A DNA stretch of 64,000 bases from Lachnospiraceae bacterium. Its GTDB lineage: Bacteria > Bacillota > Clostridia > Lachnospirales > Lachnospiraceae. Within the stretch, counting starts at the first letter, position 1. The number at the start of each line of letters is the position of its first letter. A program made the translations under genes and the position numbers. This document shows, one piece after another, positions 2-21,173 of this stretch. Where the stretch lies: assembly GCA_017556805.1 (NCBI GenBank), contig JAFYMC010000029.1, forward strand, positions 1 through 64,000, read 5' to 3'. A model generated the notes under the pieces. That model saw nothing but the letters and a program-made list of their open reading frames with translations. It had not been told where the DNA came from and made no database searches.

Positions 2-466
2 GAAGTAATCCGTTTCAATGCAGCGGAAACTCCGGTAAAGATGGGTACCTTCTCTCAGTACGACCATCCGCATACCTTGGCTCGTTACGCAGAAGTAGCT
101 GATTACCTTGGACTTAAGGGTAAGAACGACAGCGAAAAGGTGGAGAACTTAATTAAGGCGCTGGATGAGTTAAAGGCTAAGGTAGGCATTAAGGCAACCA
201 TCAAGGATTATGTTGCAGATGAGAAGGACTTCCTTGCAAGACTGGATGAGATGACCGAGCAGGCATTTGATGATCAGTGTACCGGTGCAAATCCGAGATA
301 CCCGTTAATGAGCGAGATTAAGCAGATGTACTTAAACGCATATTACGGAAAGCAGTTTGAAGAACCGAAGACTCCGGATGAGCGTCAGCTTGGGGAAGGT
401 GTTGACAAGACCGATATTAAGCAGAGCTTCCGTAGAGCAAAGAACGGCATCAATAAGAATCTGTAA
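2..466 (+). CDS. adhE: Bifunctional aldehyde/alcohol dehydrogenase, C-terminal fragment (5' end outside window)
   Basis: The frame is open from the first bases, so this is the last ~154 residues of a longer protein. The stretch CTGANPRYPLMSEIKQMY followed by LNAYYG near the end is characteristic of the C-terminal iron-dependent alcohol dehydrogenase half of AdhE, which reduces acetyl-CoA through acetaldehyde to ethanol and regenerates NAD+ in fermentation. Only this C-terminal helical part is visible, so a stand-alone iron alcohol dehydrogenase is not strictly excluded, but the wording of this motif favours AdhE. The next gene follows 14 bp after the stop with no terminator, so read-through into the downstream genes is likely. 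Confidence 0.85.
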   Translation, partial: EVIRFNAAETPVKMGTFSQYDHPHTLARYAEVADYLGLKGKNDSEKVENLIKALDELKAKVGIKATIKDYVADEKDFLARLDEMTEQAFDDQCTGANPRYPLMSEIKQMYLNAYYGKQFEEPKTPDERQLGEGVDKTDIKQSFRRAKNGINKNL

Positions 467-480
467 GGAGGAATGAGACT

Positions 481-1230
481 ATGAAACTGGATAGAGTGAT
501 TGCAGTAAGAAATAACAAGACGATTTATCGTGACGGTGATAAGTGTGTAAAGGTATTTGATGAGAATTATTCCAAGGCGGATGTATTGAATGAGGCACTG
601 AATCAGGCAAGAATCGAAGAGACCGGTTTAAACATTCCGAAGATCTTTGAAGTGACCATGATTGATGGAAAGTGGGCGATTGTTTCCGAATACATCAAGG
701 GAAAGACCCTGGCACAGTTAATGCAGGAAAATCCGGAGAAGAAGGATGAGTATCTGGAGATGTTTGTGGAGCTACAGACAACGGTACACAAGGCGACGTG
801 TCCGCTTCTTAACAAGTTAAAGGATAAGATGAACGGTAAAATCAGTAAGGCAGAGCTGGATGCCACCACACGTTATGATTTACATACCCGTTTGGAAGGT
901 ATGCCGAAGCATAACAAGGTATGTCACGGCGACTTCAACCCGTCTAATATTATCGTGACCGAGGACGGTACTCCGTATATCCTCGACTGGTCTCACGTAA
1001 CCCAGGGTAACGCTTCTGCGGATGCAGCAAGAACCTATCTTCTGTTCTGGTTAGAGGGTGATATTGAGGGTGCAAAGAAGTATCTTGATTTATTCTGCGC
1101 AAAGAGTAACACCGCAAAACAGTATGTACAGAAGTGGATGCCGATTGTGGCAGCTTCCCAGTCTGTAAAGGGTAACGAAAAAGAACGTGAATTCCTGCTT
1201 AGTTGGGTAGATGTTGTAGATTACGAATAG
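481..1230 (+). CDS. Aminoglycoside phosphotransferase-family small-molecule kinase (APH fold)
   Basis: This 249-residue protein has the marks of the APH/choline-kinase fold: an N-terminal lobe with a nucleotide-binding lysine region (KCVKVF), a hinge-like segment WAIVSEYIKGKTLAQL, the catalytic loop HGDFNPSNII near residue 149, and the metal-binding DWSH motif about 18 residues later. Such enzymes transfer the gamma-phosphate of ATP to a sugar, amino alcohol or drug hydroxyl. The substrate cannot be read from the sequence. It has a GGAGG ribosome site and sits directly between adhE and the redox module with no terminator visible, so it is probably in the same transcript. A resistance role is not implied by the fold alone. 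Confidence 0.75.
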   Translation: MKLDRVIAVRNNKTIYRDGDKCVKVFDENYSKADVLNEALNQARIEETGLNIPKIFEVTMIDGKWAIVSEYIKGKTLAQLMQENPEKKDEYLEMFVELQTTVHKATCPLLNKLKDKMNGKISKAELDATTRYDLHTRLEGMPKHNKVCHGDFNPSNIIVTEDGTPYILDWSHVTQGNASADAARTYLLFWLEGDIEGAKKYLDLFCAKSNTAKQYVQKWMPIVAASQSVKGNEKEREFLLSWVDVVDYE

Positions 1231-1242
1231 GAGGATATCAAT

Positions 1243-1482
1243 ATGAAAATCACAGTATGTATCGGTTCGTCCTGCCATATTAAGGGGTCACGTCAGGTGG
1301 TAGAGCAACTTCAGTATTTGATTAAGGAAAATAACTTAGATGATAAGGTAGAACTTGGCGGAACTTTCTGCATGGGCAACTGCCAGAAAGGTGTTTGCGT
1401 TACCGTTGATGATACCTTCTATTCCGTAACTCCGGATTCCACCAAGGAATTCTTTGAAAAACAAGTACTTGCAAAGGTGTGA
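1243..1482 (+). CDS. Thioredoxin-like [2Fe-2S] ferredoxin domain protein (first copy)
   Basis: The 79-residue protein carries four cysteines at positions 6, 11, 43 and 47 (C-X4-C and C-X3-C), the arrangement of the NuoE/Clostridium-type thioredoxin-like [2Fe-2S] ferredoxins. It is a bare cluster domain with no fused flavin or hydrogenase domain, so it is probably a soluble electron carrier or a redox partner of the downstream hydrogenase homologue. It has a clear AGGAGG site. A close paralogue follows immediately, overlapping or abutting its stop codon. Confidence 0.85.
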   Translation: MKITVCIGSSCHIKGSRQVVEQLQYLIKENNLDDKVELGGTFCMGNCQKGVCVTVDDTFYSVTPDSTKEFFEKQVLAKV

Positions 1483-1487
1483 AAATT

Positions 1488-1739
1488 ATGATCGTTCAGG
1501 TTTGTGTAGGCAGTTCCTGCCACTTGAAAGGGTCCGAAGAGATTGTGGAGCTCTTTCAGAAAGCCGTTGAAACGCATCATCTGGAACAGGAGATTACGCT
1601 TGTCGGTAGCTTTTGTATCGGCAAGTGTAATCGTATCGGTGTAACGGTTCAGGTGGATGATGACGTGTATACCGGCATTACAAGAGAAACATTTCAGGAG
1701 TTTTTTAAGGAAAAGGTTCTGGAAAAGCTGAGTGCGTAA
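1488..1739 (+). CDS. Thioredoxin-like [2Fe-2S] ferredoxin domain protein (second copy)
   Basis: This 83-residue protein is a paralogue of the preceding gene. With the ATG at 1488 the cluster cysteines again fall at positions 6, 11, 43 and 47, exactly as in the first copy, and an AAAGGTG sequence lies at suitable distance upstream. An in-frame GTG at 1479 overlapping the previous stop would add three residues and is the alternative start. The two copies are diverged, which argues against a very recent duplication and for two distinct partners in one electron-transfer or sensing chain. Confidence 0.83.
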   Translation: MIVQVCVGSSCHLKGSEEIVELFQKAVETHHLEQEITLVGSFCIGKCNRIGVTVQVDDDVYTGITRETFQEFFKEKVLEKLSA

Positions 1740-1753
1740 AGGAGTAACAGAAT

Positions 1754-3430
1754 ATGCCGAACTGTTTAACGCTGAAGAAATCAAATTGTAAAAACTGTTA
1801 TAAATGCATCCGTCATTGTCCGGTAAAGTCCATTCGTTTTTCCGGAGACCAGGCCCATATTATCGGAAACGAGTGTATTCTATGCGGTCAGTGCTTTGTG
1901 GTCTGTCCGCAGGAAGCAAAGCAGATTGTGGATGAAACCGAAAAGGTAAAGGTGCTCTTACAGAGTGGTGTGCCGGTGTATGTAAGTCTGGCTCCGTCCT
2001 TTGTAGCAAATTATGACGGCGTTGGAATTAATGCCATGCGGGAGGCGCTGCAAGAGCTGGGCTTTGCCGATGTGGAGGAGACCGCCATCGGAGCTACCAT
2101 GGTAAAGACCGAGTATGAGCGGATGTTAAGGGAAGAGGACAGAGATGTAATTATTACATCCTGCTGCCATTCGGTTAACTTATTGATTCAGAAATATTTT
2201 CCGAAAGAACTGGAATACCTCGCGAATGTAGCTTCGCCGATGCAAGCACATTGTCTGGATATTAAGAAACGTTTTCCGGATGCGAAGACCGTATTTATCG
2301 GTCCGTGCGTGGCAAAAAAGGATGAGGCGGAACATTACGGAAGTATCGTGGATGCCGTGTTGACCTTTGAAGAATTGACCGAGTGGCTGGCTGCAGAAAA
2401 AATCGAGCTACACAAAGCGATGGATTCTGCGGAGGAGAGTAAGGCAAGATTTTTCCCAACCACCGGCGGTATCTTAAAAACCATGGCACAGGACGCACCG
2501 GGCTATACTTATATGGCGATTGACGGTGTGGAAAATTGTATGGCGGCACTCCGGGATATTGAAAACGGAAAAATTCATAAGTGCTTTATCGAAATGTCTG
2601 CCTGTGTGGGTAGTTGTGTCGGTGGTCCGGTGATGGAAAAATACCACCGGTCTCCGGTGAAGGATTATATGGCGGTAGCACAGTATGCAGGCAAAAAGGA
2701 TTTTGATGTACGTCAGCCAGAGCCTTCGGAGCTTCGCAAGAATTTTGAGTTCATCGAGCTTCGTGCCCAGTCACCGGCGGAAAGTCAGATTACCGAGATT
2801 CTTCGTCAAATGGGTAAGTTCAAGCCGTCTCAGGAATTAAACTGCGGTTCCTGCGGCTATAACACCTGTCGTGAAAAGGCCATTGCAATCTTTAATGGGA
2901 AATCGGATGTGTCAATGTGTCTTCCGTTCTTAAAGGACAAGGCGGAAAGTTTTTCGGATGCAATCGTAAAGAATACGCCGAACGGCTTGATTGTACTGAA
3001 CGAGAATCTGGAGGTACAGCAGATTAATGCGGCAGCACAGAAGATTATGAATATTCGTGCAGCATCAGATGTGCTGGGAGATCAGGTGATTCGCATTTTA
3101 GAGCCGGATATTTTTCTTGACGTGTTGAACAGTGGCAAAGAGATTAAGAATCAAAGAGTTTATCTGGCAGAATACAAGCGGTATGTGGAACAGACGGTGG
3201 TACATGATAAAGAGTCCCGTATGCTCATTTGTATCATGCGAGATGTGACGGATGAGGAAAAGGAACGAGAGAAGAAGGAAAGCATCAGTCGAAGAACAGT
3301 GGAGGTTGCCGACCGGGTTGTGGACAAACAGATGCGTATTGTGCAGGAAATTGCGTCTCTTCTCGGTGAAACTGCGGCAGAAACAAAGATTGCACTGGCA
3401 AAATTAAAGGAGTCGATTTCTGATGAATGA
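1754..3430 (+). CDS. PAS-domain [FeFe]-hydrogenase homologue, putative sensory hydrogenase (HydS-like)
   Basis: Domain order in 558 residues: two N-terminal [4Fe-4S] ferredoxin motifs (CKNCYKCIRHCP and CILCGQCFVVCP), an H-cluster domain, a further four-cysteine cluster domain starting at C363 (CGSCGYNTC), a PAS domain from about residue 405, and a helical C-terminus ending in a signal-transmitter-like helix. H-cluster motifs are visible as TSCCHS (C137, C138), GPCVAKK (C185) and ACVGSCVGGP (C284, C288), so all expected cysteine ligands are present. Hydrogenase plus PAS is the architecture of group C sensory [FeFe]-hydrogenases, thought to sense H2 or redox state rather than turn over quickly. 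It overlaps the downstream phosphatase gene by 8 bp, which supports translational coupling and a sensor-output pair. Confidence 0.82.
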   Translation: MPNCLTLKKSNCKNCYKCIRHCPVKSIRFSGDQAHIIGNECILCGQCFVVCPQEAKQIVDETEKVKVLLQSGVPVYVSLAPSFVANYDGVGINAMREALQELGFADVEETAIGATMVKTEYERMLREEDRDVIITSCCHSVNLLIQKYFPKELEYLANVASPMQAHCLDIKKRFPDAKTVFIGPCVAKKDEAEHYGSIVDAVLTFEELTEWLAAEKIELHKAMDSAEESKARFFPTTGGILKTMAQDAPGYTYMAIDGVENCMAALRDIENGKIHKCFIEMSACVGSCVGGPVMEKYHRSPVKDYMAVAQYAGKKDFDVRQPEPSELRKNFEFIELRAQSPAESQITEILRQMGKFKPSQELNCGSCGYNTCREKAIAIFNGKSDVSMCLPFLKDKAESFSDAIVKNTPNGLIVLNENLEVQQINAAAQKIMNIRAASDVLGDQVIRILEPDIFLDVLNSGKEIKNQRVYLAEYKRYVEQTVVHDKESRMLICIMRDVTDEEKEREKKESISRRTVEVADRVVDKQMRIVQEIASLLGETAAETKIALAKLKESISDE

Positions 3431-4595
3431 TTTATGTACAGATATCGGTTACAAAAGTATTAATCATTACGGAGAACAGCTTTGCGGAGATCATGTGGAT
3501 GTGGTGGAAAGCGGCGAAAATTCCACGGTGATCGTACTGGCGGACGGGCTGGGAAGCGGGGTGAAAGCAAGCATTTTATCCACTCTTACCTCGAAAATAA
3601 TTTCCACCATGATGGCGGAAGGACTTCCCTTGGAAGAGTGTGTTTCCACGATTGCGGCAACGCTTCCGGTTTGTTCTTCCAGAGGAGTAGCCTATTCCAC
3701 CTTCACGATCATTCATGTGATTAACAACGATACAGCCGAACTGATTCAGTATGATAATCCCCATGTGATTTTGATCAGAGGGGAAGAAAATTACGACTAT
3801 CCGAAGACAGAAATGAACATCGGAGGAAAGAAAATCTATAAAAGTGTCCTGAAGTTAAGGGAAAATGATATTTTTATTGCCATGAGCGATGGATGTCCCC
3901 ATGCAGGTATCGGTACCGCATATAATTTCGGTTGGAGACGGGAGGATATCGCTACTTTTATGGAGACGCTGGCACCGGCAGGCTATACGGCAAAGACATT
4001 ATCTACGATTTTGGTGGATGAATGTAATAAGCTATACGGAAATCGTCCCGGGGACGATACGACTGCTTGTGTGGTACGGGTAAGAAAAAGAGAACCGATG
4101 AATATTTTATTCGGACCGCCGTCTAATCGGGATGATGGAGAACGTATGATGTCGTTGTTTTTCTCTAAAGAAGGAAAGCATATTATTTGCGGGGGAACTA
4201 CATCCTCGATTGCGGCGAAATATCTTGGAAAACCGCTTCGTGCAACGCTTAATTTTGAGCGTTCCGATGTGCCGCCGATTGCAACCATAGAAGGTGTAGA
4301 CTTGGTAACAGAAGGCGTGATTACAGTCAATAAGGTTTTGGAATATGCCAAGGATCATTTGGGTGAGAACGTCAACTACGAGCATTGGAGTGTTAAACAT
4401 GACGGAGCGTCTTTAATCAGCAGACTTTTGTTTGAGGAAGCCACTGATATTAATTTCTACGTAGGCAGAGCAATTAATCCGGCCCACCAGAACCCGGATT
4501 TGCCTATTAACTTTAACATCAAGATGAATCTGGTGGAGGAATTGTCCAAATGCCTGCGGCAGATGGGAAAACGCATTAAGGTTAGCTATTTCTAA
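3423..4595 (+). CDS. SpoIIE/PP2C-type serine phosphatase with an unassigned C-terminal domain
   Basis: Residues ~1-220 form a PP2C/SpoIIE phosphatase domain: LADGLGSGVKA near residue 40 and MSDGCPHAG and PGDDTTACVV further on supply the metal-binding aspartates. Residues ~220-390 (from NILFGPPSN) match no family I recognise, but are rich in conserved-looking glycines and end in a basic segment. The gene begins inside the end of the PAS-hydrogenase gene and ends 10 bp before the second hydrogenase. It is likely the output enzyme of the sensor, removing phosphate from a protein such as an anti-anti-sigma factor. No such partner is encoded in the window. Confidence 0.8.
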   Translation: MNDLCTDIGYKSINHYGEQLCGDHVDVVESGENSTVIVLADGLGSGVKASILSTLTSKIISTMMAEGLPLEECVSTIAATLPVCSSRGVAYSTFTIIHVINNDTAELIQYDNPHVILIRGEENYDYPKTEMNIGGKKIYKSVLKLRENDIFIAMSDGCPHAGIGTAYNFGWRREDIATFMETLAPAGYTAKTLSTILVDECNKLYGNRPGDDTTACVVRVRKREPMNILFGPPSNRDDGERMMSLFFSKEGKHIICGGTTSSIAAKYLGKPLRATLNFERSDVPPIATIEGVDLVTEGVITVNKVLEYAKDHLGENVNYEHWSVKHDGASLISRLLFEEATDINFYVGRAINPAHQNPDLPINFNIKMNLVEELSKCLRQMGKRIKVSYF

Positions 4596-4605
4596 GGAGA
4601 GGCAT

Positions 4606-6030
4606 ATGAGAAAGTTTGATACAAAAGTACAATATTTAAAATATAAGGTGCTGCGCGAGGTGGCTCGTCAGGCATGGAACGATACGCTTTTGGAGAACGT
4701 GTTGGAAATTCCGAAGACCATTGTGCCGGGAAAAACGCCAACCATGCGTTGTTGTGTGTACAAAGAGCGGGCAATTCTGGCAGAACGTGTAAAGGTTGCC
4801 ATGGGCGGTAATAAAGAGAATCCGAATATCATTGAGGTAATCGATATTGCTTGTGACGAGTGTCCGGCAGCGGGTTACGAGGTGACGGCTTCCTGTCGTG
4901 GTTGTCTTGCTCACAGGTGTGAAGATGTGTGTCCGAGAGGAGCGATTTCCTTTGACCATAACCATGTGGCTCACATTGATAAATCCAAGTGTGTGGAGTG
5001 TGGTCAGTGTGCAAAGGTATGTCCGTATTCGGCCATTGTAAACCGCAAGCGTCCGTGTCAGAATGCCTGTAAGATTAAGGCCATCTCCATTAACGAGAAC
5101 AATGCGGCATCCATTGACAATAACAAGTGTATCTCCTGCGGAGCCTGTGTATATCAGTGTCCGTTCGGCGCAATCATGGATAAGTCTTTTATCTTAAACG
5201 TAGTGGATTTACTGAAAAAGAGCGAACAGGGAAGGAACTATAAACTGTATGCAGTAGTGGCACCGTCCATTTCCAGCCAGTTTACTTATGCGAAGTTAGG
5301 GCAGGTTATCACAGGACTGAAGAAATTGGGCTTCCATACAGTAGTAGAAGCAGCACTGGGAGCGGACCTAGTAGCGATGAAGGAGTCCAGAGAACTTGTA
5401 GAAAAGGGATTTTTGACCAGCTCCTGCTGCCCGGCATTTGTGGCATACATAAAGTCGGAATTTCCGGATTTGGTGCCGTTTATTTCCCATAACCTTTCTC
5501 CGATGGCAGCAATTGGAGAATATATTAAGAAAACCAGTGAAAATGCAAAGGTAGTATTTATCGGACCGTGTACATCAAAGAAGATGGAAGCGCAGTTAGA
5601 ATCCGTAAAACCGCATGTAGATGCAGTATTGACTTTTGAAGAGTTACAGGCGCTGTTTGACAGCCGCGATATAGATATTACGACGTTAGAGGAAGGCGTA
5701 TTGGATAATGCATCTTACTTCGGACGTATCTTTGCAAGAAGCGGTGGTCTGTCTGATGCGGTATCCCAGGCTTTAAAGGAGCAGGGCATGGAGGGATTCC
5801 CGTTGAAGGCAAGCGTGTGCGACGGCATTGAAGCCTGTCGTGTGGCACTTTTAAAGAAGAGTAAAAACGTACTGGATGCCAACTTTATCGAGGGAATGGC
5901 ATGTACCGGCGGATGTATCGGCGGTGCGGGATGCCTAACCCATGGAGAGAAGAATAAAGCGGAAGTAGACAAATACGGACGGGAAGCAATGGAAAAAACG
6001 ATTTCAGACGCAGTTTCGGTGTTACAATAG
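4606..6030 (+). CDS. Monomeric ferredoxin-linked [FeFe]-hydrogenase (group B-like)
   Basis: The 474-residue protein has several N-terminal cysteine clusters (including CVECGQCAKVCP and CISCGACVYQCP) that can hold [4Fe-4S] clusters, followed by the H-cluster domain. The H-cluster motifs are TSSCCPAF (C274, C275), GPCTSKK (C322) and ACTGGCIGGAG (C433, C437). The second-shell cysteine used for proton transfer in active enzymes is kept (the CC pair). The motif variants differ from the canonical TSCCPGW and MPCTAKK of group A, which is why group B is preferred. It is the last gene of the module and is probably a catalytic H2-producing or H2-oxidising partner of the sensory hydrogenase. Confidence 0.83.
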   Translation: MRKFDTKVQYLKYKVLREVARQAWNDTLLENVLEIPKTIVPGKTPTMRCCVYKERAILAERVKVAMGGNKENPNIIEVIDIACDECPAAGYEVTASCRGCLAHRCEDVCPRGAISFDHNHVAHIDKSKCVECGQCAKVCPYSAIVNRKRPCQNACKIKAISINENNAASIDNNKCISCGACVYQCPFGAIMDKSFILNVVDLLKKSEQGRNYKLYAVVAPSISSQFTYAKLGQVITGLKKLGFHTVVEAALGADLVAMKESRELVEKGFLTSSCCPAFVAYIKSEFPDLVPFISHNLSPMAAIGEYIKKTSENAKVVFIGPCTSKKMEAQLESVKPHVDAVLTFEELQALFDSRDIDITTLEEGVLDNASYFGRIFARSGGLSDAVSQALKEQGMEGFPLKASVCDGIEACRVALLKKSKNVLDANFIEGMACTGGCIGGAGCLTHGEKNKAEVDKYGREAMEKTISDAVSVLQ

Positions 6031-6096: not shown

Positions 6097-6948
6097 ATGA
6101 AAATCACAAAGTGTTGGTATGAGATAAAAGAATTTTTTGTTATTACCCTGGGTGCTGTGTTGGCGGGAGCAGCAATTTTCTTCTTTATGTTGCCCAGTCA
6201 TTTGGCGGTTGGTAGTGCCTCGGCATTAGCGATGGTATTAAGTAACTATATTCCGCTTTCGGTTTCTGCAATTAACCTAATCCTAAATGTGTTCCTTCTT
6301 CTTATAGGATTTATATTGATTGGTCCCGGGTTTGGTATAAAGACCGTATATACATCCATTATGGTTCCGGTATCCATGGGCGTATTTGAAATTTTTTTCC
6401 CAAACTTAGAATCGTTGACGGGAGACCCTCTGCTTGATGTGCTGTGTTACATCCTTGTTGTCGGAAAGGCAATGGCAATACTTTTTTCCCACAATGCCTC
6501 CTCCGGAGGTTTGGACATCGTTGCAAAGATAATGAATAAGTATCTAAAAATTGATTTAGGAAGTGCAGTGTCCGTTTCAGGGATTGTAGTGGCGTTGACA
6601 GCTGTTTTGTGCTATGACACGAAAACCGTTGTGCTTAGTGTTCTAGGGACCTATTTTGGTGGAATTATTGTGGACCACTTTATCTTTGGTTTGAATATAA
6701 AGCGACGCGTGTGTGTCATTTCTCCGAAGATAGAGGAAATAACAGAGTATGTTCTTCATCAGTTGCATAGCGGAGCTACATTAAACGAGATTACAGGTGC
6801 TTATGATAAAACTCTTAAGAAAGAGATCATTACCATTGTAGATAAACATGAGTATAGAAAGCTGATGGATTTTGTTAAGAAAGTTGACCCGAAAGCATTT
6901 GTAACTGTGTATGCAGTGAATGAGATTCGATATCAACCGAAGAAATAA
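6097..6948 (+). CDS. YitT family membrane protein (DUF161 plus DUF2179)
   Basis: The 283-residue protein has five or six hydrophobic segments in its first ~200 residues (for example FFVITLGAVLAGAAIFFFML and the following SASALAMVLSNYIP region) and a soluble C-terminal domain beginning near VCVISPKIEEITEYV, the DUF2179 domain. This is the two-domain layout of the YitT family. Substrates are not established for most members. The gene has its own promoter and is closed by a strong terminator, so it appears to be monocistronic between the hydrogenase and phosphate loci. Confidence 0.85.
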   Translation: MKITKCWYEIKEFFVITLGAVLAGAAIFFFMLPSHLAVGSASALAMVLSNYIPLSVSAINLILNVFLLLIGFILIGPGFGIKTVYTSIMVPVSMGVFEIFFPNLESLTGDPLLDVLCYILVVGKAMAILFSHNASSGGLDIVAKIMNKYLKIDLGSAVSVSGIVVALTAVLCYDTKTVVLSVLGTYFGGIIVDHFIFGLNIKRRVCVISPKIEEITEYVLHQLHSGATLNEITGAYDKTLKKEIITIVDKHEYRKLMDFVKKVDPKAFVTVYAVNEIRYQPKK

Positions 6949-6979
6949 TCGAACGTATTGCCCACATAAATTTGAAAAG

Positions 6980-7021
6980 AGTTCCTCTCATTGCCTTTTG
7001 GTGATGGGAGGAACTTTTTTG
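6980..7021 (+). terminator. Rho-independent terminator after the YitT gene
   Basis: AGTTCCTCTCAT at 6980-6991 pairs with ATGGGAGGAACT at 7004-7015 across a 12-nt loop, followed by a run of T to 7020. Confidence 0.85.
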
Positions 7022-7146
7022 TCCTGCGATTCCATAAATGATATCGTGCTGGATTTGGGTTATTTATTTTTGCTGATCGAAGAAGTCTGCTAAATATTTG
7101 AAGGATTGATAATCTAGTAGTGAGGTTTATAAGTTTATTGGCACAT

Positions 7147-7212
7147 TTTACAAAGGTTTTGCTTATATTTGACGTAACATGGCTTTTAGATTTCACATTC
7201 GCTTTTTATAAT
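7147..7212 (+). promoter_or_regulatory. Pho-box promoter of the alkaline phosphatase gene
   Basis: TTTACA (7147), TTGACG (7169) and TTCACA (7192) resemble PhoP half-sites, with spacings of 22 and 23 bp. A TATAAT -10 box lies at 7207-7212. The 16-mer TTTTAGATTTCACATT (7184-7199) is repeated exactly before pstS, with the same 15-bp offset from TTCACA to the -10 box. The -35 position is poor in consensus and occupied by the half-sites, as expected for an activator-dependent PhoP promoter. Confidence 0.65.
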
Positions 7213-7254
7213 GAACTTGTCTTATAAGATGAAAAACGAATGGAGGTAATAACA

Positions 7255-8862
7255 ATGAAAAAAGTCATTGCAAGTTTGTTGGCGCTGAGTATGATGGTGG
7301 GTGCTTTTGCCGGATGTGGCACAAACAAACAAAATGTAACAGTTAACAAAGAAAGTATTAACAACGAAACAGATGTGAACGATAGGGTTAAATTTGCCTA
7401 TGCTGCTGAAGAAAATGTAAAGAACGAGGAAAAAGATACAACACCTAAGTATGTATTTTTGTTCATCGGTGACGGTATGAGCTATCCTCAGATTCAATCC
7501 ACTTCCGATTATCTGGGGGCATTGGCTGATGAAGATTATTTCATGGCTCAGCCTAGTTTGGACGACAATCAAGGAGCAACGTTAGATGGACCTGAGTATA
7601 TGAATTTCATGAATTTTGAAGCGGCTGGTTCTGCGGTTACTTATGATGCAAACTCTTTTGCGCCGGACTCAGCATCTACCGCGACTTCTATTTCCACCGG
7701 ACGCAAGACTTACTCCGGTACGATTAATGTAGATGTTACCGGAACAGAACTTTTTGAAACAATCACAGAGAAAGTTCATAAGCAACTTGGAATGAAAGTC
7801 GGCATTATTTCTTCTGTGAACTTAAACCATGCTACTCCGGCCGCATTTTATGCACATCAGGTGAGCCGTAACAACTACTATGAAATCGGTGAAGAATTGG
7901 TAGCATCCGGATTTGAGTTTTTTGCGGGAGGTGGTTTGAAGAAGACTACCGGGTATGATAAGGAGAACCCTTTGCCTAATTTGTATGATATGGCTGAAGC
8001 GGCCGGTTATACCGTGACATTTACCAATGAGGAAGCTGCAGCTATTACTGCTGATTCCGGAAAAGTTATTCTGATTGACGAGCATTTGGCTGATTCTGAT
8101 GCCATGGCTTATGAAATCGATCGTACAGAGGAAATGTGGTCTTTAGCGGATTATGTTGAAAAAGGCATCGAAGTTCTGGATAATGATAAGGGATTTTTTA
8201 TGATGTGCGAAGGCGGTAAGATCGACTGGGCCTGCCATGCTAACGATGCAGCTTCTACCATTCATGATACGGTGGCTTTTGCGGATGCGATTCAGGTTGC
8301 TATCGACTTTGCAAAGAATCATGCCGACGAGACTCTGATCCTCGTTACCGGTGACCATGAGACCGGAGGTTTGACTATCGGATTTGCGGGTACGGACTAT
8401 GATACTTATCTGACCTTGCTGGAGAGTCAGAAAATCTCTTTCCAGAAGTTTGATGACGAATACACCGTTAACTACAAGGAAAACGGAACTACCTTTGAAG
8501 AAGCTTTGGCTGATATCGAAGCCCTGTTCGGCTTAAAGACCGAGGGCGAAGAGAGTGACAAGCTGGTTCTTACTGACTACGAATTAGAACAATTACGTGT
8601 TGCTTTTGAGAAAAGCATCAACGGTACAGAAACCGGCGAAGATGAGCAACGGGAGTATGTGATGTACGGTACCTATGATCCGTTGTCCGTCACGTTGACT
8701 CACATCCTGAACAATAAGTCCGGCATCTCATTCACGTCTTACAGCCATACCGGTTTGCCGGTTGCAGTGCTGGCTGAGGGGGTAAATGCCGATGAGTTTA
8801 ACGGATATTACGACAATACCGAAATCTATAACAAAATAGCAGAAATGCTAAAAGTAAAGTAA
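7255..8862 (+). CDS. Alkaline phosphatase, lipoprotein form (PhoA family)
   Basis: The start at 7255 is chosen because GGAGG lies just upstream and the protein then begins with a lipoprotein signal, MKKVIASLL...AFAGC, with the lipobox cysteine near residue 22. The 535-residue product has the alkaline phosphatase set: an early IGDGMSYPQ metal-site segment, DSASTATSISTG with the serine nucleophile, a metal-site segment around EGGKIDWACHANDA, VTGDHETGG, and a late HTGLP histidine. It should release phosphate from organic esters at the outer membrane face of the cell. Its promoter carries Pho-box-like repeats, matching the adjacent pst-phoPR genes. No key residue appears to be missing. Confidence 0.88.
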   Translation: MKKVIASLLALSMMVGAFAGCGTNKQNVTVNKESINNETDVNDRVKFAYAAEENVKNEEKDTTPKYVFLFIGDGMSYPQIQSTSDYLGALADEDYFMAQPSLDDNQGATLDGPEYMNFMNFEAAGSAVTYDANSFAPDSASTATSISTGRKTYSGTINVDVTGTELFETITEKVHKQLGMKVGIISSVNLNHATPAAFYAHQVSRNNYYEIGEELVASGFEFFAGGGLKKTTGYDKENPLPNLYDMAEAAGYTVTFTNEEAAAITADSGKVILIDEHLADSDAMAYEIDRTEEMWSLADYVEKGIEVLDNDKGFFMMCEGGKIDWACHANDAASTIHDTVAFADAIQVAIDFAKNHADETLILVTGDHETGGLTIGFAGTDYDTYLTLLESQKISFQKFDDEYTVNYKENGTTFEEALADIEALFGLKTEGEESDKLVLTDYELEQLRVAFEKSINGTETGEDEQREYVMYGTYDPLSVTLTHILNNKSGISFTSYSHTGLPVAVLAEGVNADEFNGYYDNTEIYNKIAEMLKVK

Positions 8863-8872
8863 TAGATCTGTT

Positions 8873-8904
8873 GACATCCCTGTCTTGGAACAGGGATGTT
8901 TTTT
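8873..8904 (+). terminator. Terminator after alkaline phosphatase
   Basis: ACATCCCTGT (8874-8883) pairs with ACAGGGATGT (8890-8899), with a T-run to 8904. The start of the YibE/F gene lies only 10 bp further on, so that gene depends on read-through or on a promoter not seen. Confidence 0.8.
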
Positions 8905-8913
8905 GGAGGATAC

Positions 8914-10053
8914 ATGAAAAAAGGAAAACTTAGATATTATGCACCGGTGGCAGTCTGTTTATTGTTGATTGTATTTCTTCTTCTGTTACCGACCGGGCAT
9001 GAAGATGCTATTCAATACAAAGAGGCAGAACGTTGTATTGCAAAAGTTACAGAAGTTGATAATTCCGCTATTATGGATACGGGGCTTGTCCGGTCCGGAG
9101 AACAGCGCTGTACGGTTACATTCCTGAATGGTATGTTTAAGGGAAAGACGGCAATTGCAATCAATCTGTTACAGGGTTCTCTAGAACAGGATAAATTATT
9201 TTCAGAGGGTGATACGGCACAGGTTGTCATTAGTTATAATGACGATACCATTAATCGGGTTTCTATGATAGACCATTTTCGAGTTCCGGGAGAATTATTA
9301 CTGGCAGGAATATTTATTTTGTTTCTCGTCATATTTGCAGGGCGTACAGGAGTGAGGGCTATACTATCCTTTGTATTAACAATCTTGGTAATCTGGAAGG
9401 TACTGGTGCCACTGTATTTGGGTGGCTATAATCCTATCTGGATTGGTCTGGCAATCAATCTTTTGTTGACTACTCTTATTATTGCATTGGTATATGGTTT
9501 TGATAAACGTTGTGCAGCAGCAGTCAGCGGTTCATTTCTTGGAATTCTGGTGACCTGTATTCTCGGTGTAATATTTACGGATTTGTTTAAAATACACGGT
9601 GCTGTCATGGCATATTCCGAAAGCCTGCTTTATGCCGGTTATCAGCACTTGAACTTGACTCAGATATTTATGGCCTCTATATTCCTTGGTTCCTCAGGAG
9701 CTGTTATGGACTTGTCTGTGGACATTACATCCGCAGTGTACGAGGTGGTTGAGAAGAAGCCGGATATTCGCCCTTGGGAAGCGGTAAAGTCGGGCATAAA
9801 TATAGGCCGGGCTGCCATGGGTACTATGACTACAACTCTTTTATTGGCCTATTCCGGAGGCTATATCGCCTTGTTAATGGTGTTTATGGCTCAGGGAACG
9901 CCAACAGAGCATATTTTCAACTATAAATATGTTGCCGGTGAAATTATTCATACGGTAATAGGCTCCTTTGGGTTGGTGAGTGTTGCTCCGTTTACTGCGA
10001 TGTGTGCCGGTTTGCTGTTGACAAAGAAAGCAAAGAATAGAAAATTACAATAG
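8914..10053 (+). CDS. YibE/F family multi-pass membrane protein
   Basis: The start at 8914 follows a GGAGG site; an upstream in-frame ATG at 8896 lies inside the terminator T-run and is unlikely. The 379-residue protein has an N-terminal membrane segment, an extracytoplasmic stretch of ~100 residues, then about seven more membrane segments, as in fused or single YibE/F proteins. The biochemical role of the family is not settled. Its location between alkaline phosphatase and pstS suggests a link to phosphate or cell-envelope stress, but this is inference from position only. Confidence 0.78.
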   Translation: MKKGKLRYYAPVAVCLLLIVFLLLLPTGHEDAIQYKEAERCIAKVTEVDNSAIMDTGLVRSGEQRCTVTFLNGMFKGKTAIAINLLQGSLEQDKLFSEGDTAQVVISYNDDTINRVSMIDHFRVPGELLLAGIFILFLVIFAGRTGVRAILSFVLTILVIWKVLVPLYLGGYNPIWIGLAINLLLTTLIIALVYGFDKRCAAAVSGSFLGILVTCILGVIFTDLFKIHGAVMAYSESLLYAGYQHLNLTQIFMASIFLGSSGAVMDLSVDITSAVYEVVEKKPDIRPWEAVKSGINIGRAAMGTMTTTLLLAYSGGYIALLMVFMAQGTPTEHIFNYKYVAGEIIHTVIGSFGLVSVAPFTAMCAGLLLTKKAKNRKLQ

Positions 10054-10070
10054 GAATAATATGAATGAGT

Positions 10071-10107
10071 GACATCTGGGTTTGGTGAAGCAGATGTCAT
10101 TTTTTTA
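10071..10107 (+). terminator. Terminator after the YibE/F gene
   Basis: GACATCTG (10071-10078) pairs with CAGATGTC (10091-10098) and is followed by a run of T. Confidence 0.8.
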
Positions 10108-19400: not shown

Positions 19401-19438
19401 AGGATTCGGGTCCGGATGCGGACTTCGGGTCCTTTTTT
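19401..19438 (+). terminator. Terminator after divIC
   Basis: GTCCG-loop-CGGAC with flanking AGGA/TCCT pairing lies around 19401-19432, followed by six T. The spoIIE control region begins within its T-run. Confidence 0.65.
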
Positions 19439-19501
19439 GTCGTACGATTCCCGCCGGATAGGCCGGTTTCGACAGACACCGCACTCTGCCCGTGCTAGAA
19501 T
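19436..19501 (+). promoter_or_regulatory. Spo0A-type promoter of spoIIE
   Basis: TCGACA (19469-19474) and TAGAAT (19496-19501) are 21 bp apart, the unusual spacing known for Spo0A-activated sigma-A promoters such as Bacillus spoIIE and spoIIG. Two 0A-box-like sites are present: TTTGTCGTA at 19436-19444, and TCTGTCGAA on the minus strand (19468-19476), overlapping the -35 box. Each matches TTTGTCGAA at 8 of 9 positions. Confidence 0.55.
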
Positions 19502-19538
19502 GTCCCGAAAAAGGACAAGCAGGAGGATGAGGGAAAGC

Positions 19539-21173
19539 ATGTTGTGGAGAAAAAAGACGGCGGGGCGGTGGCTGATGTATTTAGGCATGGTAGGAGGCGC
19601 TACAGCCTTCTGTACCGGACTGATCGGGTGTTTGTGGAAGGAGTCGTTACTTAAGTATACGGGGCTGGGGACGCTGGTGGCAGGCTTTGTATTTTTGTTT
19701 TTATGGGCAGGAGAGCATGCGTTACGAACGTTGCTTGGGTCTCATCGCGAAGAGCTGGTGCGGGCGGATATCAGGGATCATACGAAGAAGCGTCTGTTGG
19801 AGGCGGCCGCCTCTTTTGATGTGCTGTCCGGTGTATTCGACGGAGTGACGGAGGAGACGGCAGAGGATTTTCAGAATTTTGCGGTAACGTTACCGGAAAT
19901 GGTATGCCGGGATTGTATCAGATGCGGAGACTGTTGGGAGGTACATCCGGAGGAACGATTTGCGGCGGCCTATGCCATGTATGAAGCGGCAAGATACGGA
20001 GAGGTGCCGAAGCGTGCGGAGGTGGAGTATCGGTTTGACGGCTGCCTGCGTGCGGACCGGATTGCGGAGGAGTATGCGGTATTACCCCTGAAAGAGCAGG
20101 CAAATCAGTACGTACGCCGCCGGACGGAGGAAGGAAAGACAGCGGTGGTGACCCAGCTGCGGGTGGTGTCTGAGCTGTTAAAAGAGTATTCCGATGAGTT
20201 GTATGAGACAACGTTGGGAGACGGAAAAGTGGAGGAAGCGGTAGCGGAGGCACTGTACCGAATCGGAATTTACGCGGAGCAGATTGCGGTCATGAAGCGA
20301 AAGGGAAGAGGCGTTTGTGTGCGGATGCAGGCGCATTGTAAGCAGGGGCAGTGTGTTCCGATACGGCGGGCAATCCAGTGCCTGGGACTTTTGTTCGGCT
20401 GTCCCATGGAGGTAACCGGAGATTCGGAACGGTTTATCGGGGATGTTACGGGAGAGTTTACCTTTGAGGAGGAGCCGGGTTATATGGTGCTGACCGGAGT
20501 GGCGCGGGCCACAAAGAAGGATGAAGTGTTATCGGGGGACAGTTTTTCCTTTTTGTATCCTGACAGCGGGGAAACGGTGTTGCTGTTATCCGACGGTATG
20601 GGAAGCGGAGAGGCCGCAAGCCGGGACAGTGAGGCGGTCATCGGATTGCTGGAGCGTTTTCTGGCGGCGGGTTTTGATGAGAAAACGGCCATTCGGCTTA
20701 TTAATTCCGTGCTCCTTTTGCGGACGGAAGGAAAAAGCTACTCTACGGTGGATATCAGTGTGATTAACCCATACGGGGGTACTTGTGAATTTATTAAGCT
20801 GGGAGCTTCCGGAACTTACATCAAGCGTGAGGACTGGATTGAGCGGGTGGAATCCGCCACCCTTCCGGTGGGGATGTTCGGGGATGCGGATTACGACACA
20901 AAGGAGAAAAAACTGTATGACGGAGATTATATTATTATGACCAGCGACGGTGTGCCGGAGGCATTGGGTGAGCGATTGGAGGAGGTACTGTTTGCCGTCG
21001 GGAAAAAATTGACGGACCGGACGCCTCAGGGAGTGGCCGGCGAAATTTTAAAGGCGGCGCTGGAACTGTGTGAATTTAAGCCGAGGGATGATATGACCGT
21101 ACTGGTGGCGGAGATGGTAAAAAAGCAACTGCCGTACTATTTGCAGGGAAGAGGACGGGAGACAATCGGTTAA
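19539..21173 (+). CDS. spoIIE: Stage II sporulation phosphatase SpoIIE (short membrane domain)
   Basis: The start at 19539 has GAGGG 5 nt upstream and follows the predicted promoter. The product has 544 residues: two membrane segments (about 12-60), a cytoplasmic middle domain with a CRDCIRCGDCW cysteine group, and a C-terminal PP2C domain (LLSDGMGSGEAASRDSE, MTSDGVPE, RDDMTVLV). SpoIIE dephosphorylates SpoIIAA to activate sigma-F in the forespore. It is much shorter than Bacillus SpoIIE (~830 residues, ten membrane segments) because most of the N-terminal membrane domain is absent. Position between divIC and tilS confirms identity. Confidence 0.88.
   Translation: MLWRKKTAGRWLMYLGMVGGATAFCTGLIGCLWKESLLKYTGLGTLVAGFVFLFLWAGEHALRTLLGSHREELVRADIRDHTKKRLLEAAASFDVLSGVFDGVTEETAEDFQNFAVTLPEMVCRDCIRCGDCWEVHPEERFAAAYAMYEAARYGEVPKRAEVEYRFDGCLRADRIAEEYAVLPLKEQANQYVRRRTEEGKTAVVTQLRVVSELLKEYSDELYETTLGDGKVEEAVAEALYRIGIYAEQIAVMKRKGRGVCVRMQAHCKQGQCVPIRRAIQCLGLLFGCPMEVTGDSERFIGDVTGEFTFEEEPGYMVLTGVARATKKDEVLSGDSFSFLYPDSGETVLLLSDGMGSGEAASRDSEAVIGLLERFLAAGFDEKTAIRLINSVLLLRTEGKSYSTVDISVINPYGGTCEFIKLGASGTYIKREDWIERVESATLPVGMFGDADYDTKEKKLYDGDYIIMTSDGVPEALGERLEEVLFAVGKKLTDRTPQGVAGEILKAALELCEFKPRDDMTVLVAEMVKKQLPYYLQGRGRETIG

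Follow-up and report, generated by a model that had tools for sequence, protein, structure and literature searches.

Gene sets that pair a PAS-containing [FeFe]-hydrogenase homologue (HydS) with a serine phosphatase are already known, both from a rumen bacterium and from thermophiles that make ethanol, and the pair has been proposed to switch ethanol and H2 production. In Ruminococcus albus, a published cluster of eight genes that fits this description is reported to drop 111-fold when an H2 consumer is present in co-culture, and that work likewise proposed the HydS/phosphatase idea (PMC6776011). Deletion of hfsA and/or hfsB in Thermoanaerobacterium saccharolyticum reportedly gives ~1.8-fold ethanol, with higher adhE transcripts and NADH-ADH activity (PMC5707799); deletion of hfsC and/or hfsD brings no such rise in ethanol or adhE. 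Loss of hfsB is also reported to raise hydrogenase activity, and in hfsB mutants NADH-ADH activity increases without ALDH activity, for which the authors suggested possible post-transcriptional control. In T. thermosaccharolyticum, hfsD alone, returned to a whole-operon deletion, is described as bringing the high-ethanol phenotype back, so in that species the phenotype does not depend on the phosphatase. H2 sensing by group C hydrogenases is called putative in the literature, very low activity is reported for these enzymes, and the signal path from a sensory hydrogenase to gene expression is given as unknown in one study (PMC11376134). A first-pass annotation of the DNA analysed here held that the physiological output of such a module was not established; this view is out of date, because the R. 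albus co-culture drop and the effect of hfsABCD on ethanol yield, seen in the hfsA/hfsB deletions, make the output partly known.

The window, a stretch of 64,000 nucleotides at the start of a Lachnospiraceae contig, carries the five co-directional genes that the first-pass annotation had grouped as a redox module at 1243-6030. All five ORFs were confirmed on the + strand, with intergenic distances of -4, +14, -8 and +10 bp; the proposed overlap of the phosphatase start with the HydS end is real and measures 8 bp, and Pfam supports each of the domain calls (two 2Fe-2S proteins, a PAS-hydrogenase, a SpoIIE-type phosphatase and a second hydrogenase). The genes of the module are thus genuine, while its description had overlooked the end of adhE, an APH-like kinase gene that begins 14 bp after adhE, and the C-terminal domain of the phosphatase (Table 1).

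Table 1. Features of the adhE-kinase-hydS-phosphatase-hydA2 locus in the window.
Feature	Position	Strand	Basis or remark
adhE 3' end (bifunctional acetaldehyde/alcohol dehydrogenase)	2..466	+	Frame open from base 2; contig start cuts gene
APH/RIO-like kinase, 249 aa	481..1230	+	PF01636 51.8 bits, PF01163 38.5 bits
[2Fe-2S] thioredoxin-like ferredoxin-domain protein 1, 79 aa	1243..1482	+	PF01257 39.7 bits, E 5.3e-10
[2Fe-2S] thioredoxin-like ferredoxin-domain protein 2, 86 aa	1479..1739	+	PF01257 40.6 bits, E 2.9e-10
HydS, PAS-containing group-C [FeFe]-hydrogenase homologue	1754..3430	+	PF02906 + PF04060 + PF00989 (PAS)
HydS C-terminal tail, residues 523-552, proposed coupling helix	3320..3409	+	Conservation across 33 non-redundant HydS
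Phosphatase PP2C/SpoIIE catalytic domain	3423..4082	+	PF07228 54.9 bits; ORF 3423-4595
Phosphatase C-terminal domain, no Pfam name, residues 221-390	4083..4592	+	30 invariant columns, 26 sequences
Monomeric [FeFe]-hydrogenase, group B1 by NCBIfam, HydA2 counterpart	4606..6030	+	PF02906; TIGR04105

On pRUMAL01 of R. albus 7 the genes run rex-adhE-kinase-[2Fe-2S]-[2Fe-2S]-HydS-SpoIIE phosphatase-HydA2, and the window has the identical order, with similar spacing, from adhE on. Its six complete genes share 63-82% protein identity with their R. albus 7 counterparts (kinase 77%, 2Fe-2S proteins 76% and 63%, HydS 72%, phosphatase 82%, group B hydrogenase 80% to HydA2), and the adhE fragment is 54% identical. 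By order and identity, the five genes at 1243-6030 are genes 4-8 of the R. albus-type eight-gene cluster. That cluster starts with rex, whereas the window's contig opens within adhE, leaving only the last ~155 codons, and rex is not in view. Synteny and identity show the locus to be the 3' part of a predicted fermentation operon of the R. albus rex-adhE-kinase-2Fe2S-2Fe2S-hydS-phosphatase-hydA2 type. The check for conserved co-occurrence proposed in the first-pass annotation was run: the gene order extends beyond one strain and recurs in R. albus 7 and many Clostridia loci. In the closest relative found (L031), whose phosphatase is 98% identical to the window's, the adhE ORF is 905 aa long and scores 1404.7 bits against the NF010378 cut-off of 951; within the 1.0 kb that its contig holds before adhE lies an ORF that we read as AraC-like, not rex.

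The wider comparison covered 115 loci: the best-scoring 80 of 586 confirmed close relatives (78-98% phosphatase identity; the near set) and those 35 of the 48 phosphatase places in a class sample of 148 genomes that were retrieved with wide flanks (the far set). The near and far sets cover separate ranges of identity, but many of the rows are closely related: the same phosphatase half recurs in L097 and L098, and L075 and L087, at minimum, also belong to the class-sample genomes behind the kinase, adhE and phosphatase counts. Gene calls in the locus scans were simple ORFs, and a locus with too little flank entered the counts as a miss, except where stated. The phosphatase count of 48 leaves out rows that match the catalytic domain alone (E 8.5e-11 or worse; most are frames of ~750-850 aa, taken as SpoIIE) and the second half of a split gene in G042.

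In 112 of these 115 loci the gene immediately before the phosphatase is of the HydS type, so the arrangement is far beyond chance, and in 77 the overlap between the two is exactly 8 bp. A phylum-wide search found the pairing in 29 of its best-scoring 30 loci. In the class sample, 47 of the 48 phosphatase genomes have a HydS match (G121 is the exception), and the phosphatase match is absent from 8 of the 55 HydS genomes. This supports one part of the first-pass annotation: the association of the group-C (PAS) hydrogenase homologue with a PP2C/SpoIIE phosphatase is both tight and widespread, and the pair shares its operon with a catalytic-looking hydrogenase. No HydS-phosphatase fusion was seen among the loci read by eye, and our literature search found neither a direct biochemical HydS-phosphatase link nor anything joining hydrogenase, phosphatase and 'group C3'.

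Pfam gives HydS the group C architecture: a single chain carries an H-cluster domain, a C-terminal FeS domain and PAS. It falls below the NCBIfam TIGR04105 cut-off (189.4 vs 450 bits), and alignment with the genome's own group-A-type enzyme places Gly and Ser at two H-cluster methionine positions. Its 30-residue tail is the most conserved among the segments compared, with a mean top-residue frequency of 0.81 vs 0.55 for the H-cluster domain across 33 non-redundant HydS; one aligned homologue, which continues into an AAA+-like part, has the tail replaced. This conservation suggests that the tail is likely a phosphatase-coupling helix, and as such it looks new. Read by eye, four long HydS forms (L149, L150, L151 and L153) run on into a sigma54-activator-like AAA+ part, and the HydS of L152 has the same length.

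In the phosphatase, D23, D41-G42, D156-G157 and D211-D212 are invariant among 26 sequences, and we take the aspartates to be metal ligands. Five PDB profile matches were obtained: 5mqh ('Serine phosphatase'), 3t91 and 5ucg (both SpoIIE), 3pu9, and 3w40 (RsbX). The C-terminal domain was matched in 95 of 299 phylum genomes, and in 3 genomes of one genus it stands alone as proteins of 156-159 aa beside HydABC-like genes. Pfam and PDB profile searches gave it no convincing family; a single PDB match to phosphoheptose isomerase (E 0.0099) was unconvincing. This unnamed conserved domain looks new. A further SpoIIE-like ORF, with a weak match (E 7e-6), lies at 19416-21173 of the window.

We give a probability of about 60% to the reading that this is an H2- and redox-controlled operon in which HydS sets the phosphatase, which in turn acts within the ethanol/H2 branch, on a regulator or an enzyme. 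The last gene of the locus passes TIGR04105 (monomeric group B1 [FeFe]-hydrogenase) with 570.7 bits against a cut-off of 450, close to R. albus HydA2 itself (577.4 bits), and a hydrogenase of this group B/HydA2 type follows in 71 of the 80 near loci (best 80 of 586) and 13 of the 35 far ones. HydS might instead work mainly on this neighbouring catalytic hydrogenase, by redox or physical contact, or serve as an electron sink, with the phosphatase secondary. Such an account would fit the restoration of the ethanol phenotype reported for hfsD alone, the reported rise in hydrogenase activity on hfsB loss and the two [2Fe-2S] carriers in the operon. However, among the 22 far loci that have no group-B-type hydrogenase within 1.2 kb, 20 keep HydS beside the phosphatase (L121 and L137 do not); together with the invariant aspartates and the very low activity reported for group C enzymes, this makes it unlikely.

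The first-pass annotation had expected the phosphatase to act in a STAS anti-anti-sigma partner switch. We found no support for this: neither the window's gene run nor the annotated recurrent neighbour clusters contain a linked STAS substrate or RsbW-like kinase, L121 being an exception for the kinase. In its broader form, the phosphatase would dephosphorylate a STAS anti-anti-sigma factor or a DRTGG protein, opposed by an RsbW-like kinase such as the ATPase beside a group-D-like hydrogenase at G000:C6. The SpoIIE-family fold agrees with this, as does L121 (G096), where the phosphatase is followed by genes for a DRTGG-like protein, an RsbW-like ATPase, a group-D-like hydrogenase, a second DRTGG-like protein, a PHP-like protein (DRTGG and PHP being our own naming) and HydABC-like proteins; at C6 the genome of the window carries a comparable gene set that lacks the phosphatase. 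Searches of its assembly (86% complete) with PF01740 and PF13581 gave two PF01740 STAS matches, in frames of 141 aa and 564 aa. The 141-aa frame, the sole small one, adjoins an RsbW/SpoIIAB-type ATPase, a pair that we read as SpoIIAA-SpoIIAB, and the genome has another SpoIIE-like ORF; both points argue against partner switching here. As the opposing kinase, the RsbW-like ATPase was rejected, its genome co-occurrence with the phosphatase not being significant: the C6-type ATPase (71 genomes kept, rows with E worse than 1e-31 left out) occurs in 28 of 48 phosphatase genomes, and is thus absent from 20, vs 43 of 100 others (p=0.11). We regard partner switching as quite improbable.

The kinase reaches the cut-off of none of the 25 NCBIfam families listed, and among solved structures its closest relatives are of the Bud32 type (E 0.001) and choline kinase (E 0.006). 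In 31 of 36 class matches of at least 54% identity its gene comes immediately 3' of adhE, and two more are cut at contig ends; the count keeps 36 of 43 rows, without the second fragment from G039 and six rows at 25-33% identity. The pairing also occurs in Collinsella, of another phylum. This conserved APH/RIO-like kinase gene looks new as a neighbour of adhE; no pairing of adhE with an aminoglycoside phosphotransferase was found in titles and abstract starts of the papers listed, which is not proof of its being unpublished. Most far loci lack the kinase (it is present in 6 of 35), and 17 of the 34 genomes that have it gave no phosphatase match, which means that any opposing role cannot be its alone.

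A kinase-phosphatase cycle on AdhE itself, with the APH-like kinase adding the phosphate and the PP2C removing it, or the reverse, would give post-translational control of ethanol flux. The adhE-kinase adjacency, Collinsella included, and the reported gain of NADH-ADH without ALDH activity in T. saccharolyticum hfsB mutants point in this direction. Against it, 17 of 56 kinase loci have no adhE 5' of the kinase (six end there and eleven have another ORF), G126 has the kinase, HydS and phosphatase without an adhE match, and the kinase may act on a small molecule, as its Bud32-type and choline kinase relatives suggest. We consider the cycle doubtful.

With 67 of 75 AdhE genomes kept (eight with only half-length matches left out) and single-domain alcohol dehydrogenases in L065 and L129 removed, a long adhE and the phosphatase are no more than 10 kb apart in 13 of the 30 genomes that have both, or 17 of 30 counting four split by contig ends; the long match is absent from 18 of 48 phosphatase genomes. 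Phosphatase-linked adhE comes in several gene orders and two divergent AdhE types. Parsimony on the phosphatase tree (47 rows, the partial G062 left out) needs 11 changes of adhE adjacency, a weak clustering (24 of 500 shuffles were as low). Of 31 relatives, near-copies included, 18 have Rex-box-like sites ahead of adhE or rex-adhE, vs a mean of 3.1 and a maximum of 8 in approximate dinucleotide shuffles. L031 has two such sites before adhE, and none was found in the R. albus stretch; the two matches in the window, whose contig begins inside adhE, are located elsewhere.

In the favoured reading, in which HydS sets the phosphatase, the HydS H-cluster would read the H2 or redox state, and the change would pass through the C-terminal [4Fe-4S] and PAS domains to the conserved tail. 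The tail would dock on the SpoIIE/PP2C phosphatase, the product of the next, overlapping gene, and set its activity. The phosphatase might then alter the phosphorylation of a regulator or enzyme in the ethanol/H2 branch, perhaps opposed by the APH-like kinase as the likeliest local enzyme, and expression of adhE and the group-B hydrogenase would be high at high H2. Rex, responding to NADH/NAD+, may be a second input at the same promoter, given the Rex-box-like sites in relatives. The favoured reading draws on the gene-for-gene match to R. albus 7, the R. albus co-culture drop, the hfsA/hfsB deletion effects, the HydS-phosphatase pairing, the conserved tail and aspartates, the linkage of adhE to both phosphatase and kinase, and those sites. 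Counting against it are the hfsD result in T. thermosaccharolyticum, the lower share of far loci with a group B/HydA2-type hydrogenase, the patchy occurrence of the kinase, the phosphatase genomes without a long adhE match and HydS genomes without a phosphatase match, the weakly clustered adhE adjacency, the AraC-like ORF before adhE in L031, the failure to find a Rex-box-like site in the R. albus stretch or a direct biochemical HydS-phosphatase link in the literature searched. That the HydS tail gates a PP2C with a new C-terminal domain against an AdhE-partner APH/RIO-fold kinase, so that H2 sets AdhE or a shared regulator beside Rex/NADH control, is a tentative and rather unlikely elaboration; if true, clostridial fermentation would have two undescribed regulatory parts in the kinase and the phosphatase domain. 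How H2 tips fermentation towards ethanol or towards acetate plus H2 determines the energy yield and fuels methane formation in guts and rumens, and this choice is also a target for engineering thermophiles that produce ethanol. The conserved tail, the extra phosphatase domain and the adhE-linked kinase are defined parts open to testing.

Compared with described systems, the window resembles Thermoanaerobacterium hfsABCD in having a PAS hydrogenase (hfsB), a serine phosphatase (hfsC) and a ferredoxin-linked hydrogenase (hfsD) in one operon, whereas adhE and the kinase are not described as members of hfsABCD in the available text. Its HydS has all the parts of group C hydrogenases (H-cluster domain, C-terminal 4-Cys FeS domain and PAS) and matches TmHydS in the Gly/Ser reported at the two methionine positions, but it keeps a Cys-Cys pair where TmHydS reportedly has Ala (A131) replacing a cysteine. 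With the SpoIIE, RsbU and RsbX PP2C phosphatases the window's phosphatase has the PPM catalytic domain in common, and it differs from them by its extra unnamed C-terminal domain and by its tie to HydS instead of STAS/RsbT genes.

All five open reading frames (ORFs) that the first-pass annotation had joined into an H2/redox signalling module were found at their coordinates and in the same direction, separated by −4, +14, −8 and +10 bp, and domain searches agreed with its assignment of every gene. Against the NCBIfam threshold for group B1 (TIGR04105, 450 bits), the last hydrogenase qualifies with 570.7 bits, and HydS, the PAS-bearing hydrogenase, falls well short with 189.4 bits. The operon extends beyond these genes: the end of adhE and a kinase gene precede them. 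Base 1 of the window is also base 1 of contig C30 in its genome (G000), and adhE is the first gene visible. Among the relatives found, L031 is the closest (its phosphatase is 98% identical); at the corresponding place it carries a 905-aa adhE ORF whose score on the bifunctional AdhE model, 1404.7 bits, exceeds the cut-off of 951.

Coordinates of features in the window, in two further contigs of its genome and at relatives' loci
Feature	Sequence	Coordinates	Remark
3' end of adhE	window	2-466	by comparison with L031
APH/RIO-like kinase gene	window	481-1230	249 aa; 14 bp after adhE
SpoIIE-like phosphatase ORF	window	19416-21173	585 aa
Second adhE-kinase pair	L155 (G000:C16)	6695-10099	
Second putative sensory hydrogenase run	L146 (G000:C6)	1862-5244	hydrogenase 428 aa
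TnpB-related gene	L119	5786-7246	
TnpB-related gene	L120	3004-4623	
TnpB-related gene	L122	2971-4575	
TnpB-related gene	L123	3236-4846	
TnpB-related gene	L124	8771-10339	
TnpB-related gene	L125	6273-7748	
TnpB-related gene	L127	9128-10684	

We compared 115 loci of relatives: a near set of 80 (the best-scoring of 586 confirmed) and a far set of 35 from a class sample of 148 genomes. A HydS-type gene lay immediately upstream of the phosphatase gene in 112 of them, and the two genes overlap by 8 bp in 77 of the 115. The remaining loci are L101, at a contig edge, L121, whose genome (G096) has a HydS match ~15 kb off on the same contig, and L137. A phylum-wide search of 299 genomes with the C-terminal domain of the phosphatase found HydS upstream in 29 of the 30 best-scoring loci (exception L174), three of these genomes also belonging to the class sample. 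Within the class sample, HydS was matched in 47 of 48 phosphatase genomes, and 8 of 55 HydS genomes had no phosphatase match. The L121 phosphatase immediately precedes a run of DRTGG-like, RsbW-like ATPase, group-D-like hydrogenase, DRTGG-like, PHP-like and HydABC-like genes.

For 33 HydS sequences that are <70% alike, divided at borders that we set, the mean top-residue frequency was 0.81 in residues 523-552, vs 0.68 in the N-terminal clusters, 0.55 in the H-cluster domain, 0.73 in the C-terminal FeS domain and 0.49 in PAS. Residues 523-552 make up a tail located after PAS, with 6 more residues up to the stop. We infer that this tail couples HydS to the phosphatase, which is a separate protein. 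In L149, L150, L151 and L153, HydS homologues of 873-881 aa, a sigma54-activator-like AAA+ part takes the place of the tail, as aligned for L150. This part appears to be fused to the hydrogenase-FeS-PAS sensor, reads as having a helix-turn-helix-like end, and apparently represents a second output type of the same sensor. The second putative sensory hydrogenase of the window's genome, with no PAS seen, stands in a run with DRTGG-like, RsbW-like ATPase, DRTGG-like and PHP-like genes, adjoined by a NuoE-like gene on the opposite strand.

The C-terminal domain of the phosphatase has 30 invariant columns among 26 sequences, found no convincing Pfam family and gave a single, unconvincing PDB match. 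It was matched in 95 of the 299 phylum genomes; three genomes of one genus, which also carry the two-domain form, encode it alone (156-159 aa) between two HydABC-like gene sets. At L184 and L189, from two genomes, the phosphatase is apparently split between its catalytic and its C-terminal domain, either genuinely or through a frameshift. The further SpoIIE-like phosphatase of the window has an N-terminal membrane part seemingly much shorter than usual.

Neighbours were counted wherever at least 6.5 kb of sequence was available on the upstream side of the phosphatase; the adhE numbers exclude L065 and L129, where the gene is a single-domain alcohol dehydrogenase. The 41 near loci yielded kinase in 29, adhE in 23, LysR in 22 and rex in 15; the 30 far loci yielded kinase in 5, adhE in 9, rex in 6 and a bifurcating-type NuoF in 11. 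The phosphatase occurs in 48 class-sample genomes, long AdhE in 67 and both in 30; adhE lies within 10 kb of the phosphatase in 13 of these 30, or 17 with the contig-end splits (G000, G008, G039, G108), vs a chance expectation of the order of 1%, roughly estimated from genome size. Upstream adhE with kinase is one of several orders: adhE-kinase lies downstream at L118, divergent adhE downstream at L120, L122, L123 and L126 and upstream at L154, and L209 reads phosphatase-rex-adhE. These differing orders suggest repeated association. On a quick tree of 47 rows the adhE-adjacency label changes 11 times, a weak clustering (24 of 500 shuffles were as low). Of 31 relatives, near-copies among them, 18 have Rex-box-like sites, with at most three mismatches to the consensus, ahead of adhE or rex-adhE (100 shuffles: mean 3.1, maximum 8); two such sites lie within 85 bp of adhE at L031, and the Ruminococcus albus stretch yielded none. 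A lactate dehydrogenase-type gene, another fermentation branch enzyme, follows the phosphatase or hydrogenase gene at L038, L048, L052, L054 and L067 (Pfam-checked in L067 only).

For the kinase, we retained 36 class-sample matches of at least 54% identity, dropping a second G039 fragment and six rows at 25-33%. In 31 of the 36, adhE is directly 5' on the same strand with aligned ends within 180 bp; the window and G008 kinases are cut at contig ends where adhE fragments are present, and those of G010:C13, G126 and G027 lack it. Half of the 34 kinase genomes had no phosphatase match. Among 56 wide loci with the kinase, adhE is immediately upstream in 39; of the other 17, six are cut off at that point and eleven carry a different ORF, which is rex or LysR in five. 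These counts associate the kinase with both adhE and the HydS module. In Collinsella aerofaciens, too, adhE is followed by such a kinase (50% identical). The kinase scored under the cut-offs of all 25 NCBIfam families listed, resistance families included, and we see no reason for a resistance-gene label. The second adhE-kinase pair of the window's genome has a kinase 75% identical to the window's; the 14 kb fetched around it held no HydS or phosphatase match.

At seven loci, the next gene downstream of the phosphatase (four) or adhE (three) is TnpB-related and encodes 486-539 aa. All seven score under the TnpB family cut-off, six matching the model in its C-terminal third alone and L125 over most of its length. 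In an alignment with three TnpB proteins from a single genome, all seven have another residue in place of the first RuvC aspartate and six in place of the glutamate (L119 keeps it); both are catalytic residues of TnpB. The gene appears to be a domesticated TnpB without nuclease activity, located in a fermentation operon.

The comparisons show which operon this is, that its sensor and phosphatase genes overlap, that the tail and the catalytic site are conserved, and that adhE, kinase and rex are linked to it. In the mechanism we propose, H2 would act on the H-cluster of HydS, the signal would pass through the FeS and PAS domains to the tail and from there to the phosphatase, and a phosphoprotein substrate would in turn set adhE and hydrogenase expression. 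The partner-switching (STAS) output suggested earlier found no support. The kinase, the HydS tail and the extra phosphatase domain are the parts worth following up. In Thermoanaerobacterium saccharolyticum, according to PMC5707799, deleting hfsA and/or hfsB raised ethanol ~1.8-fold, with higher adhE transcript and NADH-ADH activity, and deleting hfsC and/or hfsD gave no such rise. In T. thermosaccharolyticum, the high-ethanol phenotype requires hfsD and hydAB, and hfsD alone, reintroduced after whole-operon deletion, brought it back (PMC11837493), which argues against a required phosphatase role in that phenotype.

The known counterpart is plasmid pRUMAL01 of R. albus 7, with the order LysR, rex, adhE, phosphotransferase, two (2Fe-2S) genes, HydS, SpoIIE phosphatase and HydA2 hydrogenase gene. 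Of the eight genes that run from rex to hydA2, seven recur in the window in identical order. The six complete window genes are 77, 76, 63, 72, 82 and 80% identical, in gene order, the adhE fragment is 54% identical, and HydS and the phosphatase overlap by 8 bp in both; the window operon is of the R. albus 7 type. According to PMC6776011, a putative eight-gene R. albus cluster drops 111-fold when the bacterium is grown together with an H2 consumer; the cluster includes a putative sensory hydrogenase, the ferredoxin-only hydrogenase and a bifunctional alcohol/aldehyde dehydrogenase. The authors propose that the group C enzyme senses H2 and that a serine or threonine phosphatase may modify downstream regulators. 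Judging by these contents and by the placement of hydA2-hydS on pRumal01 in PMC10838669, this is probably the pRUMAL01 cluster compared here. The rise of adhE on HydS loss in Thermoanaerobacterium and of the cluster at high H2 in R. albus both fit HydS restraining its output at low H2.
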